From NCBI GenBank assembly GCA_026388655.1, contig JAPLJI010000085.1:1-45308 (forward strand): a stretch of DNA of 45,308 nt, given 5' to 3'. The notes below the pieces were generated by a model. The model made no database searches. It saw only the letters and a program-made list of their open reading frames with translations, and was not told the origin of the DNA. The stretch comes from Pseudomonadota bacterium (GTDB lineage Bacteria; Desulfobacterota; JAPLJL01). The translations under genes and the position numbers were made by a program. This document shows positions 732 to 8,638 of the stretch, piece after piece. Each line of letters opens with the position of its first letter. The first letter of the stretch is position 1.

Positions 732-1304
732 TCAATCCTTAATATATTCATCAAAATGTTCGTGTAGAAAAGACATAATCCCCAGGTGATACAGGTATTT
801 CTCCGCGATTTCAGTTTTGTGCTTGCGCGAAAGTCGCAGCCATCCTTCGGATAGAGCAATGATCAATAATCCCATTGGAACCAGCAAGGCGAAGGAAAAT
901 TCGGCGAAAGCCAGGGCGATTCTTTTCTGACGATTTTTTTTGATCGACAGTTTCAAATCCTGGATTTTTTCCATCTCCTTTTTTATCTCTTCGACATTCA
1001 AATTGACTTTATCGATATAAATAACCGCGATCGCGCTGAAATATCCCCAGGCCACCCCCAATTTCTCGCTTTTGTGCTTAATTAGTGAAATATAAGGTTC
1101 GGAAGCGTCATTTTTGCCCAGAAAAATAACGTAATTATTCCCGGCAATCTCAACCTCCTTGTCTTTCCACTGCTTAAGGTTGAAATACGAAGCCTTTAAA
1201 TCTTTCTTTTCCGAAATCGCGTGGACCAGGCCGATCGCGATATCCTGGAGTTTTTTATCCGCGACCACCGCGATATTTTTTAGGGCCGTCTTTTCCTTGG
1301 TCAT
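732..1304 (-). CDS. Uncharacterised protein with a Rossmann-like N-terminus and one membrane segment
   Basis: A 190-residue protein I do not recognise. The N-terminal 90 residues alternate predicted strands and helices (KNIAVVADKKLQDIAIGL, then NNYVIFLGKND), suggesting a small alpha/beta domain. A charged helical stretch at about residues 103-128 (VEEIKKEMEKIQDLKLSIKKNRQKR) is followed by one clear hydrophobic segment, FSFALLVPMGLLIIALSEG, near residues 135-155. The last 35 residues are charged again. The gene is visibly more AT-rich than the housekeeping genes around it and stands alone between repeat-rich spacers, which suggests acquisition from elsewhere. The start ATG at 1304 has no clear ribosome binding site. 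Function unknown. Confidence 0.6.
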   Translation of the reverse strand: MTKEKTALKNIAVVADKKLQDIAIGLVHAISEKKDLKASYFNLKQWKDKEVEIAGNNYVIFLGKNDASEPYISLIKHKSEKLGVAWGYFSAIAVIYIDKVNLNVEEIKKEMEKIQDLKLSIKKNRQKRIALAFAEFSFALLVPMGLLIIALSEGWLRLSRKHKTEIAEKYLYHLGIMSFLHEHFDEYIKD

Positions 1305-2905: not shown

Positions 2906-3874
2906 ATGTACGGAATCATCGTCAATCCGAACGCCAAGAAAAACATCGGGGGGAAATTCTGCCCGGAGGACCTGGAGAAAATCATGGGGAAGCGGGCCAT
3001 CGTCCGCTCTACCCCGCACATTTCCAACGTCCGCGACGTCTTTTCCGAGTTTTTCGACCGCGGGGTGAATGTCATCTGCGTCTCCGGCGGGGACGGCAGC
3101 CAGCACCTCACGCTGACCGAGCTGGTCCATTTCTGCCGGGAGAAAAAACTCGAGCTTCCCCTGCTTTACCCCATCCGGGGAGGCGTGATGAACATGGTGT
3201 CGAACGAGGTCGCCACCCGCTTCGGCAATCCCGCCACCCAGTGCAAGAAGCTCTGCGCCTTTGATGAAAAAATATGCCCCGAGCCGGGCGCGAAGGGCGA
3301 AGCCGGCCATCTTCCTTTCGTAACCCTGCCGGTTCTGAAGATCGAGGATCCGCAGGCGGAAAAGGAGGCGTACGCCTTCACCTTTGCCAACGGGATTCTC
3401 TACAAGGGCCTGGATGAATATAACCGCGGGTCGAAGAACGTGTTCGCGGCTTTCTGGCTCGCCGTCCGGATCATTTCGGGGGCGATCGTCCCGAACCGCC
3501 TGGTCACCCCCACCGAAAACCGGGTCAAGGTGAACGGGAAAGCCCTGGCACACTCACAGCATATCTTCATCGTCGCCGGCACGATCAAGAAGCTGGTTCT
3601 CTGGTTTTCCCCCTTCGCCACGCCGGCGGGGGCGAAGGAGGGGGAATTCTACAGCCTCTGCTGCGGGCTGACCCCGTTCGAGGTTTTTCAACACCTGCCC
3701 TCCTATTCCGTCGGGAAAAGGAAGCATGAGCGGCTCTACAACCAGCCCGCCCGGGTGCTCGAGATCGAGGGGCAGGAAGGCTATGTCCTCGACGGCGAGG
3801 TTTATCACCGGAAGAAAGGTTACCAGGTCAAGGTCACGTCGGGACTCGAATTGAAATTCCTAAAGATTAAATAG
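2906..3874 (+). CDS. Divergent diacylglycerol-kinase-family protein (paralog 1)
   Basis: A 322-residue protein of the DAGK catalytic (LCB5/DgkB-like) superfamily. These enzymes use ATP to phosphorylate lipids such as diacylglycerol. It opens with MYGIIVNPNAKKN, the family's first strand and loop. The nucleotide-binding motif is GGDGS at residues 61-65. The usual P-x-GTGN-x-x-A segment is changed to PIRGGVMNMVSNE (89-101), so the loop is divergent. Near the end (296-298) is the conserved DGE. The ATG at 2906 is chosen because aaggagaggag precedes it and because the second paralog then has the same length. The substrate is inferred. The adjacent Tam41-like gene favours phosphatidate production, but a sphingoid or other lipid is possible. 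Confidence 0.72.
   Translation: MYGIIVNPNAKKNIGGKFCPEDLEKIMGKRAIVRSTPHISNVRDVFSEFFDRGVNVICVSGGDGSQHLTLTELVHFCREKKLELPLLYPIRGGVMNMVSNEVATRFGNPATQCKKLCAFDEKICPEPGAKGEAGHLPFVTLPVLKIEDPQAEKEAYAFTFANGILYKGLDEYNRGSKNVFAAFWLAVRIISGAIVPNRLVTPTENRVKVNGKALAHSQHIFIVAGTIKKLVLWFSPFATPAGAKEGEFYSLCCGLTPFEVFQHLPSYSVGKRKHERLYNQPARVLEIEGQEGYVLDGEVYHRKKGYQVKVTSGLELKFLKIK
3235..3367 (+). repeat. Near-identical tract shared by the two kinase paralogs
   Basis: Bases 3235-3367 equal 4297-4429 (offset 1062) except for one silent t/c difference at 3349/4411. Flanking parts of the same genes differ far more, including at third codon positions. This is the pattern left by recent gene conversion. Confidence 0.85.
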
Positions 3875-3967
3875 GTCATAGGTGACAGGTTATGGGTGAT
3901 AGGGGGAAGATGTACAAAGCAAACAATCAAAATTTTAGGGGATGGAGATTACCATAAGTCTTTCAAG

Positions 3968-4936
3968 ATGTTTGGAATTATCGTCAATCCGAACGCCAAG
4001 AAAAACCTCAAGGGGAAACACGGCCCGGAGGACCTGCAGACAATCATGGGGAAGCGGGCCATCGTCCGCTCCACCCCGTCCCTTTCCCGGTGCCGCGAGG
4101 TCTTTTTCGAGTTTTATGACCGCGGGGTAAAGGTCATCTGCATCTCCGGCGGTGACGGCACCCAGCACCTGACCCTGACCGAGCTGATCCATTTCGCCCA
4201 AGAACAGAAACTCGAGCTTCCGCTGGTCTACCCCATCCGCGGGGGCGTGATGAACATGGTCGCCAACGAGATGGCCACCCGCTCCGGCAACCCGGACACC
4301 CAGTGCAAGAAGCTCTGCGCCTTTGATGAAAAAATATGCCCCGAGCCGGGCGCGAAGGGCGAAGCCGGCCATCTTCCTTTCGTAACCCTGCCGGTTCTGA
4401 AGATCGAGGACCCGCAGGCGGAAAAGGAGATGTACGCCTTCACTTTCGCCGGCGGGATCCTTTTCAAGGCCCTGGATCAGTATAACCGCGGGCCCCGGAA
4501 CCTCCGGTCGGCTTTCGACCTGGGGGTGCGGATTGTCGGGGGGGTGGTCCTCCAGAACCACTGGTTCGACCCGACACCCGCCCGGGTTTTTGCCGAGGGT
4601 AAGGAGCTGCCCTTCCTCGAAAACCTTCTCACCATTGCCGCCACTTTGCGGAAGCTGGTCCTCTGGTTTTCGCCCTTCGCCCCGGCGGACAAACCCCTGA
4701 CCGATGATTTTTACGGTTACTGCCTGGCCCTCCGCCCCTGGGAAATCACCAAGCATATCCCTTCTTATTCACGCGGGAAGCGAAAACACGAGCGCCTCTA
4801 CAATCAAACCACCCGCGAGCTCAGGGTGGACGGGCTGAACGGCTATGTCCTGGACGGGGAGGTTTACTCCCGGAAGAACGGTTACCAGGCGCGGATCACC
4901 GCGGGGCCGCAACTCAAATTTTTACAAGTGAAATAA
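3968..4936 (+). CDS. Divergent diacylglycerol-kinase-family protein (paralog 2)
   Basis: A 322-residue tandem paralog of the preceding gene, alike in every motif: MFGIIVNPNAKKN at the start, GGDGT at residues 61-65, PIRGGVMNMVANE near 89 and LDGE near 295-298. It keeps the canonical GGDGT, where paralog 1 has GGDGS. I start it at the ATG at 3968 since this matches the paralog exactly. The open frame continues upstream to a GTG at 3896, but that stretch is intergenic word-repeat DNA. No clear ribosome binding site is seen. Both copies are complete, so a heterodimer or split substrate range is possible. Role in lipid phosphorylation is inferred from the family. Confidence 0.72.
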   Translation: MFGIIVNPNAKKNLKGKHGPEDLQTIMGKRAIVRSTPSLSRCREVFFEFYDRGVKVICISGGDGTQHLTLTELIHFAQEQKLELPLVYPIRGGVMNMVANEMATRSGNPDTQCKKLCAFDEKICPEPGAKGEAGHLPFVTLPVLKIEDPQAEKEMYAFTFAGGILFKALDQYNRGPRNLRSAFDLGVRIVGGVVLQNHWFDPTPARVFAEGKELPFLENLLTIAATLRKLVLWFSPFAPADKPLTDDFYGYCLALRPWEITKHIPSYSRGKRKHERLYNQTTRELRVDGLNGYVLDGEVYSRKNGYQARITAGPQLKFLQVK

Positions 4937-5039
4937 CTGATGGACCGCTGAATGAACCCTCTGCTCCCTGCCCTTTGCCCTCTGCGCCAGTTTCTATGTT
5001 CCTTGCGGAGAAGCCGTTTACCATTTACCTTGATTTGAT

Positions 5040-6014
5040 ATGACCCCGGAAGCGCAGGCGATCAGGCAGAAGGTAAGGGAAGGGGTCCGCCAGGCGGTTT
5101 TAACCCCGTCCTCCGACCCCGCGCTTCCCGCTTTTACCGAGTATTTCCGGGAGAGGTTCGGCTCCGAGCTTCTGGCCGTGATCCTTTATGGCTCCTGCCT
5201 CTCGCCGGTCACCCGCCGGGAATCATCCATTTACGATTTTTTCCTGATCTGCGACCGTTACCGCCCCTTTTACCGAAACCTGAAGCTCGCCCTGTTTAAC
5301 TATTGCCTCCCTCCCAATATTTTCTATTTCGAACTGCCGGATCCCGGGCTCGGCAAACTCGCGGGGAAATACTCGGTCACGAGTCTCCCGGATTTCCGGC
5401 AGGAAACCTCGCCCCGGGCCCACGACACCTACCACCTGGGCCGCTTCGCGAAGCGGGTAACGATCGCCTATACGCGGGACGAAAAGGTCCGGGAGGCGCT
5501 GGTCGACGCGGTTGTCTCGGCGATGGAGCAGAACCTCCGGCTGGTCCTCCCCTGCCTGCCCGAACGCTTTGCCCGGGATGAATTCGTCACCACCCTGCTC
5601 GGGATGAGCTACCGGGGGGAAACCCGGGTGGACGTGGATACCAAGGTGGAGGAGCTTTTCCAGGCCGAGGCGGATTATTACCGTTGGTGTTACAGGGAGC
5701 TTTTGCGCGCCCACCTGCTCGAGCGGAAAGTCGGGGCGGAGGCGGACGGCCATTATTACCTGCCGGGAAAACCCTGGCCACGGCGTTATCGCCGGCTGGC
5801 GGTCCGGGCCCGTTTGTTCAAAACCCGGATCCGGAATTATCTCCGCTGGCCCAAATACATCATCACCTTCGACAACTGGCTGGATTACCTCCTCTCCAAG
5901 CTCGAGCGGAGCAAGGGCGTCCGCCTGGAACTAAACGAGCGGGAGAGAAAATACCCTTTAATTTTCGGCTGGAAACATTTCTTCCGGCTGAAGCGGGCCG
6001 GCAAAATCAGGTAA
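5040..6014 (+). CDS. Tam41-like phosphatidate cytidylyltransferase (CDP-diacylglycerol synthase) candidate
   Basis: A 324-residue protein with the order of motifs of mitochondrial Tam41. It has a nucleotidyltransferase core with ILYGS (48-52) and the acidic IYDFFLICD (64-72). Next come PPNIFYFE (91-98), KYSVTSLPDF (110-119) and the hallmark YHLGRFAKRVTI (131-142). A C-terminal helical region follows with LLGMSYRGETRV (186-197). Tam41 makes CDP-diacylglycerol from phosphatidate and CTP and is unrelated to the multi-spanning CdsA. No membrane span is seen, in keeping with a peripheral enzyme. It lies about 100 bases downstream of two lipid-kinase-like genes, so the three may form one lipid pathway. 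The stop overlaps the convergent PilZ gene by 8 bases. The activity is inferred; the fold assignment is fairly firm. Confidence 0.75.
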   Translation: MTPEAQAIRQKVREGVRQAVLTPSSDPALPAFTEYFRERFGSELLAVILYGSCLSPVTRRESSIYDFFLICDRYRPFYRNLKLALFNYCLPPNIFYFELPDPGLGKLAGKYSVTSLPDFRQETSPRAHDTYHLGRFAKRVTIAYTRDEKVREALVDAVVSAMEQNLRLVLPCLPERFARDEFVTTLLGMSYRGETRVDVDTKVEELFQAEADYYRWCYRELLRAHLLERKVGAEADGHYYLPGKPWPRRYRRLAVRARLFKTRIRNYLRWPKYIITFDNWLDYLLSKLERSKGVRLELNERERKYPLIFGWKHFFRLKRAGKIR

Positions 6015-6390
6015 GCTTCCGGGGAAGTTCCTTTAAAGCCGTCCGGATCACTTCCTTGCTCAGGGGATCGAGCTCGGAAAATTTCACCCCGATGCCCAGG
6101 TATTCCTCGTCTTTATCCTTGAGGAGCTTGGACCAGACAACCTCGCCCTCCACCTTGACCGGGCTCGGCCGCCCGGGAATGTAAAGCGCGAGCTTGAGCT
6201 TGGTCCCGGTTTTCAGGGGGTTGATCGAACCGACCCGGATTCCCCCCTCGGAGATGTCGTAGGAATAATCCGAAAAGAAGGCGCCATCCCCGACGAAGTT
6301 CACCCGGAAACGGGCATTCTTCCGGTCATGTTGTCGTTTTTGCAGAGATTCAGAAATTGAAAGCCTCTCCTTACTAAGCACATATATCAC
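6007..6390 (-). CDS. PilZ domain protein (probable c-di-GMP receptor)
   Basis: A 127-residue single-domain PilZ protein. The two c-di-GMP contact motifs are visible: an RxxxR-like arginine cluster in KRQHDRKNARFRV (about residues 18-30) and DISEGGIRV (about 46-54), matching D-x-S-x-x-G. PilZ proteins bind cyclic di-GMP and alter motility, exopolysaccharide synthesis or transcription through partners. The partner here is unknown. The start is unclear: the open frame begins at a GTG at 6390, but a ribosome-binding-like aaggagagg lies inside it at codons 7-9, with no standard start just after it. It is convergent with the Tam41-like gene, overlapping it by 8 bases. Confidence 0.85.
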   Translation of the reverse strand: MIYVLSKERLSISESLQKRQHDRKNARFRVNFVGDGAFFSDYSYDISEGGIRVGSINPLKTGTKLKLALYIPGRPSPVKVEGEVVWSKLLKDKDEEYLGIGVKFSELDPLSKEVIRTALKELPRKLT

Positions 6391-7031: not shown

Positions 7032-8066
7032 TTAATTTCGGACGGGAGGCTTCGGGCCGCGGGCGCTTTTCCCGGGGATGAACCGGACCAGGTACATTTC
7101 CAGAAGCAGGTAGGGCGAGAGGCCCGTCCGCTTGAGCTTCAGATCGAGTTCCGAGAGATCGCGGAGCCCCTGGCGGATCTCGGCCTGGGTATAAGCCCGG
7201 GCTTCCCGGCAGAAGCACTGGAGCGCGTAGGGGTGATTGATTTTCAGGCGTTTGCCGATCTGCGCTTCCGCGATCCCCTGGTCCAGGAGCAGGCGGGTCA
7301 GGAGGAGTTTCCGGATCCGCCCGGCCAGCTGACCGAGGATCATGATCGGGTGGTCGCCGCCGGCGAAGAGCCGGTTCAGGGTTTTCAGCGCCCCGGGAAG
7401 ATTCCGGGCCCCGATTTCATTGAAGAGGCTCCAGATGGTTCCGCTCGCCCCGCTCGAGAGGGTTTTCCAGACGGCTTCGGCCGGGATGATCCGGGCCTCG
7501 GTGTAAATCATGACCTTTTCCAATTCCTGGAAGGCGAGGGCCAGGTCGGTGCCGACCCGGTCGGCGATCGCCAGGGCGGCTTCCCGGGACAGGCTCCGGC
7601 CTGCTTCCCGGGCCCGGTCCAGAAGCCAGTCCGGCACCTGGTTTTCTTTCAGGGATTCGGCCTTGATCAGTTCTCCCGCCTGGGTCAGCAGGGCGGCGAG
7701 CTTGCCGGCCGGGGCCTTGGTTCCTTCCAGGACCAGGACCGTGGAGGCGCTGGGATTGGCCAAGTATTTTTCCAGCGCGGGGATTTCGGCGGCCGGGAGC
7801 TTTTCCAGGTCCCGGGCCAGGACCAGCTTCCGGTCGGCGCCGAAGGGCAGGGTCCGAGCCGCGTTTAAAATCTCGGAAAGCCCGGTTCCGGCCGGGTAGC
7901 TCTCGAAATTGAGCGAGTCGTTTTCCGGGAGAATCTCTTTTTTCAGCCGCTTGATGAAATCCTCCCGCTGATAACTGTCGGGGCCGAAGATCCCGTAAAC
8001 GAGGGAGGGTTTTCCGCCCCGGGCCGGGCTCGCGTTCTTCCCCGGGTTTTTCGGGGAAGCTTTCAA
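7032..8066 (-). CDS. holA: DNA polymerase III subunit delta
   Basis: A 344-residue protein matching HolA, the clamp-loader subunit that opens the beta sliding clamp. The N-terminus shows the family opening LVYGIFGPDSYQREDFIKRL. The central part carries VLVLEGTKAPAGKLAALL, and the C-terminal helical collar has LFAGGDHPIMILGQLAGRIRKLL, typical of delta. Its length equals the family norm. The start is a TTG at 8066 whose bases overlap the TGA stop of lptE (TTGA), suggesting translational coupling. The order leuS - lptE - holA - rpsT is widespread in Gram-negative bacteria. Confidence 0.93.
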   Translation of the reverse strand: MKASPKNPGKNASPARGGKPSLVYGIFGPDSYQREDFIKRLKKEILPENDSLNFESYPAGTGLSEILNAARTLPFGADRKLVLARDLEKLPAAEIPALEKYLANPSASTVLVLEGTKAPAGKLAALLTQAGELIKAESLKENQVPDWLLDRAREAGRSLSREAALAIADRVGTDLALAFQELEKVMIYTEARIIPAEAVWKTLSSGASGTIWSLFNEIGARNLPGALKTLNRLFAGGDHPIMILGQLAGRIRKLLLTRLLLDQGIAEAQIGKRLKINHPYALQCFCREARAYTQAEIRQGLRDLSELDLKLKRTGLSPYLLLEMYLVRFIPGKSARGPKPPVRN

Positions 8067-8638
8067 AATCCGCCTCCCCAGCGATTGACCACCTCCCGGG
8101 CGATGGCCTCGGCCGCCCGGGCGATGGCGTCTCTACGATTGCTGTCCAGCATCAGGGCCCGGTCCCGGGCGTCGTAGTAGGTTTCCTCCTGGAGGTTGGA
8201 AAGCTGCCAGAGGATCTTCTGATCGGACTTGCGCGTGACCGTGATATTCACCAGGACCACGACCTGGTAATCGGCGGGGGAGAATTGGTCCCCCGCGCCG
8301 GTCGGGTAGTAGGAAGCCACCGAATCGGAGATGGAGATGATCCGGCCCTGCAGGGTCGCTTCCGCGTCCGCGGGCGCGACCACCCGGGCCAGGCCCCTCT
8401 GGGTAATGGCCTCGATCACCTTCTCGGTGAAAACAGCTTCAATGCCGCGGTAGGCGGTGCGGTTCTCCCAGGTGGGTACGGAGATGGTGGCGACGGAAGG
8501 GGTTTCCGGATCCAGGTGCCCGATCGGGTGGTAGCCGCACGAAGCGAGTGAAAAGAGAAAGGTGAAAAGTAAAAGGTGAAAGGTGAAGAATGCAAAAGAA
8601 AAAGATTTTTCGGGAGAGATTTTTTTATTGCCTTTCAC
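8063..8638 (-). CDS. lptE: LPS-assembly lipoprotein LptE-like
   Basis: A 191-residue lipoprotein between leuS and holA, the usual site of lptE. A hydrophobic signal ends in the lipobox LASC, with the lipidated Cys at about residue 34. The mature start CGYHPIGHLDPE is typical of LptE, and NRTAYRGIEAVFTEKVIEAI matches its first strand-helix unit. LptE plugs the LptD barrel that inserts lipopolysaccharide in the outer membrane. The open frame starts with a GTG at 8638. The signal-peptide codons lie in a purine/pyrimidine-biased run of short words like those in nearby intergenic DNA (see findings). The stop TGA overlaps the holA start. Sequence conservation in this family is low, so the assignment leans on context. 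Confidence 0.85.
   Translation of the reverse strand: MKGNKKISPEKSFSFAFFTFHLLLFTFLFSLASCGYHPIGHLDPETPSVATISVPTWENRTAYRGIEAVFTEKVIEAITQRGLARVVAPADAEATLQGRIISISDSVASYYPTGAGDQFSPADYQVVVLVNITVTRKSDQKILWQLSNLQEETYYDARDRALMLDSNRRDAIARAAEAIAREVVNRWGGGF

Follow-up and report, generated by a model that had tools for sequence, protein, structure and literature searches.

The window analyzed here is a 45,308-nucleotide stretch of contig JAPLJI010000085.1 from an uncultured bacterium, and three of its genes form what we interpret, with a probability of about 0.55, as a two-step lipid-activation module: a diverged relative of the CpgB–CpgC pair of Caulobacter that acts on a non-ceramide substrate, most likely a diradylglycerol-type alcohol. 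All three genes lie on the forward strand and begin with ATG. The genes dagk1 (2906–3874) and dagk2 (3968–4936), its tandem copy, each encode a 322-residue CpgB-related lipid kinase with a diacylglycerol kinase (DAGK) fold, and tam (5040–6014) encodes a 324-residue protein predicted to be a Tam41-type, CpgC-related CTP:lipid-phosphate cytidylyltransferase. The open reading frames bear out a preliminary description of this DNA, made from the sequence alone, that had placed two kinases of this length upstream of tam, and Pfam matches above the curated cut-offs agree with the enzyme classes it had named. Its logic of a kinase followed by a cytidylyltransferase is also supported. Read from the sequences, one or both kinases would transfer phosphate from ATP to the free hydroxyl group of a neutral membrane lipid, and the Tam41-type enzyme would then move CMP from CTP onto the lipid phosphate, yielding a CDP-lipid and pyrophosphate. 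The product's predicted fate is to be joined to a head group by a CDP-alcohol phosphatidyltransferase encoded elsewhere.

Both kinases carry the Pfam domain DAGK_cat (dagk1, 27.5 bits, E = 2.5e-6; dagk2, 28.2 bits, E = 1.5e-6; curated cut-off 23.6) and are 68% identical to each other. The dagk1 protein has a GGDGS motif, an RGGVMN loop and an LDGE close to its C-terminus, while dagk2 has a GGDGT motif. The preliminary description had singled out a divergent PIRGGVMN loop; the loop is present, but it is less odd than was held because it stands in register with the loops of CpgB-type kinases, such as LRAGTTSM and LPGGTTNL. A profile built only from CpgB-type kinases gave 103.5 bits for dagk1 and 109 bits for dagk2, and it separated 11/11 kinases of the window's genus (94–124 bits) from other DAGK-domain proteins (25–36 bits), a comparison set of five entries, four of them distinct (one occurs twice), in which L090, the sole one scanned, is YegS-type. 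The homology of both kinases to CpgB is full-length and extends beyond the generic DAGK domain. They resemble the YegS/DgkB/BmrU lipid kinases in having the DAGK_cat domain and the GGDG motif, but they fall below the TIGR00147 cut-off of 118.65 (dagk2, 11.7 bits; dagk1, no match) and are clearly split off by the CpgB-type profile, and we therefore rejected a generic YegS-type identity.

The kinases of the genus, together with their paralogues elsewhere in the genome, form a separate clade with a stem of 1.75 in a kinase tree that carries a long-branch warning for other parts of it. Two genomes of the genus carry dagk1 orthologues of 83–84% identity; dagk2 has an orthologue in locus L017 and none adjoining tam in L010. 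At E ≤ 1e-25, kinases of the window's type occur in 3/395 genomes of the phylum, all of the window's genus. The window's own genome encodes five or more kinases related to CpgB, and three of them are of one close type. The third of these, 46–50% identical to dagk1 and dagk2, lies at 7501–8454 of L083 (contig C189) and, in a sister genome, at 7744–8697 of L091; an AIRS-type gene stands on one side of it and a FAD oxidoreductase gene on the other (Pfam, own genome), and the same order was read in the sister genome. Two further CpgB-related kinases of the own genome are found at 4563–5498 of L084 and 7246–8172 of L085; one of them has in its vicinity a gene read as an undecaprenyl-diphosphatase as well as a calcineurin-type phosphoesterase (Pfam).

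A divergent, expanded kinase set that is restricted to one genus in the sample, and whose third close member neighbors a gene for a FAD oxidoreductase in two genomes, could also fit the phosphorylation and activation of a non-glycerol alcohol (a polyprenol, a sterol-like or a long-chain alcohol) for a special envelope glycolipid. We consider this doubtful, as there is no direct clue to such an alcohol and PcrB matches only below its curated cut-off, in 3/4 genomes. These matches (21–23 bits, positions 162–217 of 226) also led us to drop an archaeal-type ether lipid.

The tam protein matches Tam41_Mmp37 (PF09139) with 37.0 bits (E = 3.2e-9; curated cut-off 24). A tam-family profile of 14 relatives matches S. 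pombe Tam41 (6ig2) at 8e-10 and, at 7.6e-4, 7ecd, a phosphatidate cytidylyltransferase that we take to be bacterial. The invariant residues of the family are Y50, G51, S52, D66, K110, R135, F136, Y191 and R196; among them K110, R135-F136, Y191 and R196 are in register with both 6ig2 and 7ecd, inside the significant alignments. A conserved C-terminal block (R269, K272, T276, Y283, K287, R290) has no aligned counterpart in Tam41. According to passages of a review (PMC11646218), Tam41 retains a single one of the usual three acidic residues, which fits the lone conserved D66 of tam, and bacterial Tam41 produces CDP-diacylglycerol. A CpgC-type-only profile (28 rows) gave 212.7 bits for tam and 200–213 bits for all four tam-clade proteins, and the homology of tam to the Tam41-like proteins of ceramide-phosphoglycerate (cpg) clusters is full-length. 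In the tam tree, the window's genus and one genome outside it, G031, form a single fully supported clade with a stem of 1.86 from the 28 CpgC-type rows. The preliminary description had proposed checking whether cdsA is absent; an ordinary cdsA (PF01148, 222 bits) is encoded elsewhere in the same genome, and we consequently rejected tam as a replacement for CdsA, which shares its predicted chemistry but is an unrelated integral membrane protein.

The closest described system is the Caulobacter pathway to ceramide phosphoglycerate (CPG/CPG2). There the ceramide kinase CpgB (CC_1160) acts about equally on diacylglycerol in vitro (PMC10331486), and CpgC (CC_1161) is needed for CPG, its authors noting a CDP-diacylglycerol-synthase-type InterPro domain and suggesting an NDP-ceramide (PMC11324152); in the literature to May 2026, as a preprint of that year puts it, CpgC works 'via an unidentified mechanism' (PMC13228409). 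On Roseomonas plasmids, the order CpgA–DAGK–Tam41-like–Spt equals the published order of CC_1159–1162, and from this gene order we infer that the tam-type protein of the clusters is the positional equivalent of CC_1161. The window's module shares with CpgB–CpgC a DAGK-type kinase adjoining a Tam41-like protein, and its proteins match profiles of their counterparts from other families and phyla over the full length, CC_1161 not being among them. It differs in that its genome lacks CpgA and serine palmitoyltransferase (Spt), the known ceramide-building enzyme, that no LptF/LptG stands next to the trio, that the kinases are doubled and that both proteins fall in separate deep clades.

We surveyed the phylum for this gene arrangement. 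PF09139 alone found 8/297 genomes, and a 14-row tam profile matched 30/395, 27 of them credible; G142, G190 and G273 (18–26 bits, short) were dropped from all counts on 27. Within the flanks, about 1.5 kb on each side of tam in most genomes, a DAGK-type gene is present in 22/27 genomes (3/3 in the window's genus), a CpgA-type CDP-alcohol transferase without a DAGK in 4/27 and neither in 1/27 (G031), so that one or the other adjoins tam in 26/27. CpgA is near tam in 19/27, with L014 counted for G245, and most of the 27 loci are clusters resembling the Caulobacter cpg cluster. The tam–DAGK adjacency appears on both sides of the deep split between two tam clades. Such synteny in relatives, the absence of which would have told against the preliminary description, largely refutes the explanation that generic diacylglycerol kinases and an unrelated nucleotidyltransferase are neighbors by chance; spacers near 100 bases and the lack of terminator or promoter evidence for a single transcript speak for chance, which is nonetheless scarcely credible. 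Two loci of the survey have further genes. In G245, an extra gene between kinase and tam (1404–2648 of L014) weakly matches a CDP-glycerol glycerophosphotransferase (E = 0.056, below cut-off) and possibly performs a head-group step. In G160, two CpgA-type transferases flank tam (7253–8473 and 9194–10702 of L155), with no kinase seen within 18 kb.

Outside the phylum, tblastn retrieved tam relatives from 15 plasmid records when the window's tam was the query and from 17 when its relative from G008 was. In 5/6 inspected plasmid loci the tam relative, annotated 'hypothetical protein', is accompanied by a CDP-alcohol phosphatidyltransferase, a diacylglycerol/acylglycerol kinase, a metallophosphoesterase and LptF/LptG, and the stretch shown for 4/5 of these cpg-type clusters (not that of Diaphorobacter) includes an Spt-like aminotransferase and an acyl carrier protein; the sixth locus (Qipengyuania) has the kinase alone beside the tam relative. 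Since none of the six plasmid-borne CpgC-type proteins scanned has a Pfam match at E ≤ 1, the link to Tam41 is invisible to ordinary Pfam annotation; PF09139 likewise has zero matches in the Caulobacter control genome. Two of the cpg-type clusters lie on IncP plasmids, Diaphorobacter pDCB2 (L018, NZ_CP065408.1), which is typed as conjugative, and Pseudomonas pPNP1 (L019, NZ_CP073662.1), where the stretch shown contains the Spt-like aminotransferase, the acyl carrier protein, an epimerase and an acyl-AMP ligase. The suspicion of an undescribed route does not hold in full, because homologues of both genes lie in the cpg cluster, which also contains Spt, LptF/LptG, a phosphoesterase and a CDP-alcohol transferase; the route is kin to CpgB and CpgC, the second a protein without a proven reaction. 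Both the cpg link and the odd part of the case, a genus without Spt and CpgA, had been missed.

Across the phylum, tam and Spt strongly co-occur. At E ≤ 1e-130 the Spt profile matches 17/395 genomes, comprising 16/27 tam genomes versus 1/368 others (G082; Fisher p = 1.7e-20, shared ancestry uncorrected). Among the 11 tam genomes without a strict Spt, three (G001, G018 and G173) have a weaker Spt-like candidate for which SerpalmtaseCFB is the best model but under its cut-off, two (G056 and G359) have a weaker candidate near tam that is ambiguous between Spt and BioF, G355 has a 170-bit Spt fragment at a contig end, and G031 has a BioF-type enzyme only. The Spt profile found no Spt-family candidate in G134, though tam there sits with LptF/LptG. 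In 3/3 genomes of the window's genus there is no match to the Spt/BioF/Kbl family at E ≤ 0.001. These genomes also contain no full CpgA: the window's own genome (G000) and G049 have 30–42-bit matches to the shared CDP-alcohol domain, and G011 has none. The own genome does encode CDP-alcohol transferase domains at other places. The window's tam is therefore not seated in a cpg/Spt cluster, with neither an Spt-family match nor a full CpgA genome-wide, and it belongs to its own deep clade.

These absences bear on a true Caulobacter-like phosphosphingolipid route, in which ceramide from missed or unrelated genes would be converted to ceramide-1-phosphate and CDP-ceramide. Kinship with the CpgB/CpgC pair, the tam–Spt co-occurrence and the 312-bit bCerS-like acyltransferase that the own genome encodes (6946–8088 of L086, contig C137) are what one would expect of it, but the genus has no Spt/BioF/Kbl-family match and no CpgA, and the bCerS-like gene is missing from the two sister genomes; we regard this route as quite improbable. 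The bCerS-like gene adjoins a gene for a FadL-type outer membrane protein, with an amine-oxidase-like gene near. The window's module is apparently a ceramide-free, diverged variant of a known gene pair. Nothing in the literature searched, which covered few subscription papers, describes a pair like CpgB/C in a bacterium that lacks Spt.

The likeliest substrate is accordingly an alcohol of the diradylglycerol type and not ceramide, given that the known route to ceramide is missing, that CpgB accepts diacylglycerol in vitro and that phosphatidate is what bacterial Tam41 uses; the module would then serve as a side route beside CdsA. An alternative is plain diacylglycerol salvage, where the kinases would restore phosphatidate and the soluble tam protein would act as a second CDP-diacylglycerol synthase, backing up CdsA for ordinary phospholipids. 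The in vitro activity of CpgB, as given in part of its report (PMC10331486), and the product of bacterial Tam41, as given in part of the review (PMC11646218), agree with salvage; a backup is tolerable since cdsA is present, and G031 carries tam but no kinase of the CpgB type, a hint that ordinary synthesis can supply the phosphatidate on which its tam acts. However, at least five CpgB-related kinases exceed the needs of salvage, and the pair's relatives serve a special envelope lipid. We judge plain salvage possible but unlikely, and the doubt that the preliminary description had voiced about plain diacylglycerol as the lipid is still fair.

Several observations weigh against a diverged lipid-activation module. 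In G031, a single-contig genome whose tam is the nearest to that of the genus from outside it, no CpgB-type kinase occurs genome-wide; the kinase is therefore not obligatory to tam, a caution against regarding the two as inseparable. No CDP-alcohol transferase stands next to the trio. The three genomes of the genus are 94, 82 and 91% complete, so that their missing genes are likely, not certainly, absent. AlphaFold models from 3- and 5-row alignments were useless (mean predicted local distance difference test scores of 41.9 and 38.5). Finally, the preliminary description had credited tam with all signature segments of Tam41. The significant Pfam match stands, but the claim was overstated: unlike in Tam41/Mmp37 proteins, the match is confined to the central region, positions 97–210 of 322 in the profile (114 positions, the middle third), and the N-terminal YGS (aligned with 6ig2 and 7ecd) and D66 (aligned with 7ecd alone) are in register only below significance.

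The intermediates that link CpgC-type proteins to Tam41 point to a CTP:lipid-phosphate cytidylyltransferase fold for them, and thus to a directly testable answer, CDP-ceramide. The window's genus adds a case in which a kinase/tam pair is present though the known pathway to ceramide is not. We tentatively suggest, at a confidence short of even, that a pair of the CpgB/CpgC kind has here been removed from sphingolipid synthesis and placed in a lineage-specific non-ceramide CDP-lipid route and, by extension, that CpgC may be the missing CDP-ceramide synthase, in which case a Kennedy-like liponucleotide chemistry would build bacterial phosphosphingolipids. The module is useful mainly for asking if CDP-ceramide is the product of CpgC-type proteins and which lipid the version in the window activates.

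Purifying selection acts on all three genes. Between genomes of the window's genus, the ratio of nonsynonymous to synonymous substitution rates (dN/dS) is 0.16–0.22 across dagk1, dagk2 and tam (dagk1, 0.20–0.21; dagk2, 0.205), and it is 0.41 between the tandem kinases dagk1 and dagk2. The dagk1 start codon is preceded by AAGGAGAGGAG, and the spacers measure 93 bases (dagk1–dagk2) and 103 bases (dagk2–tam). Promoter-like and terminator-like matches in the trio region show no excess over shuffled sequence, and co-transcription is therefore not demonstrated. The three proteins have zero matches to phage families at E ≤ 0.1. The trio is flanked on the reverse strand by an EFR1-type flavodoxin/ferredoxin gene (1596–2492; NCBIfam, 104 bits) and by a PilZ gene (6007–6390) that shares eight bases with the end of tam. 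Farther upstream, a 190-residue protein (732–1304, reverse strand) has no Pfam match and meets a DNA polymerase III delta model at E = 4.8e-4, far under its cut-off. The remainder of the window, going by an unaided reading of its genes, is housekeeping chromosome.

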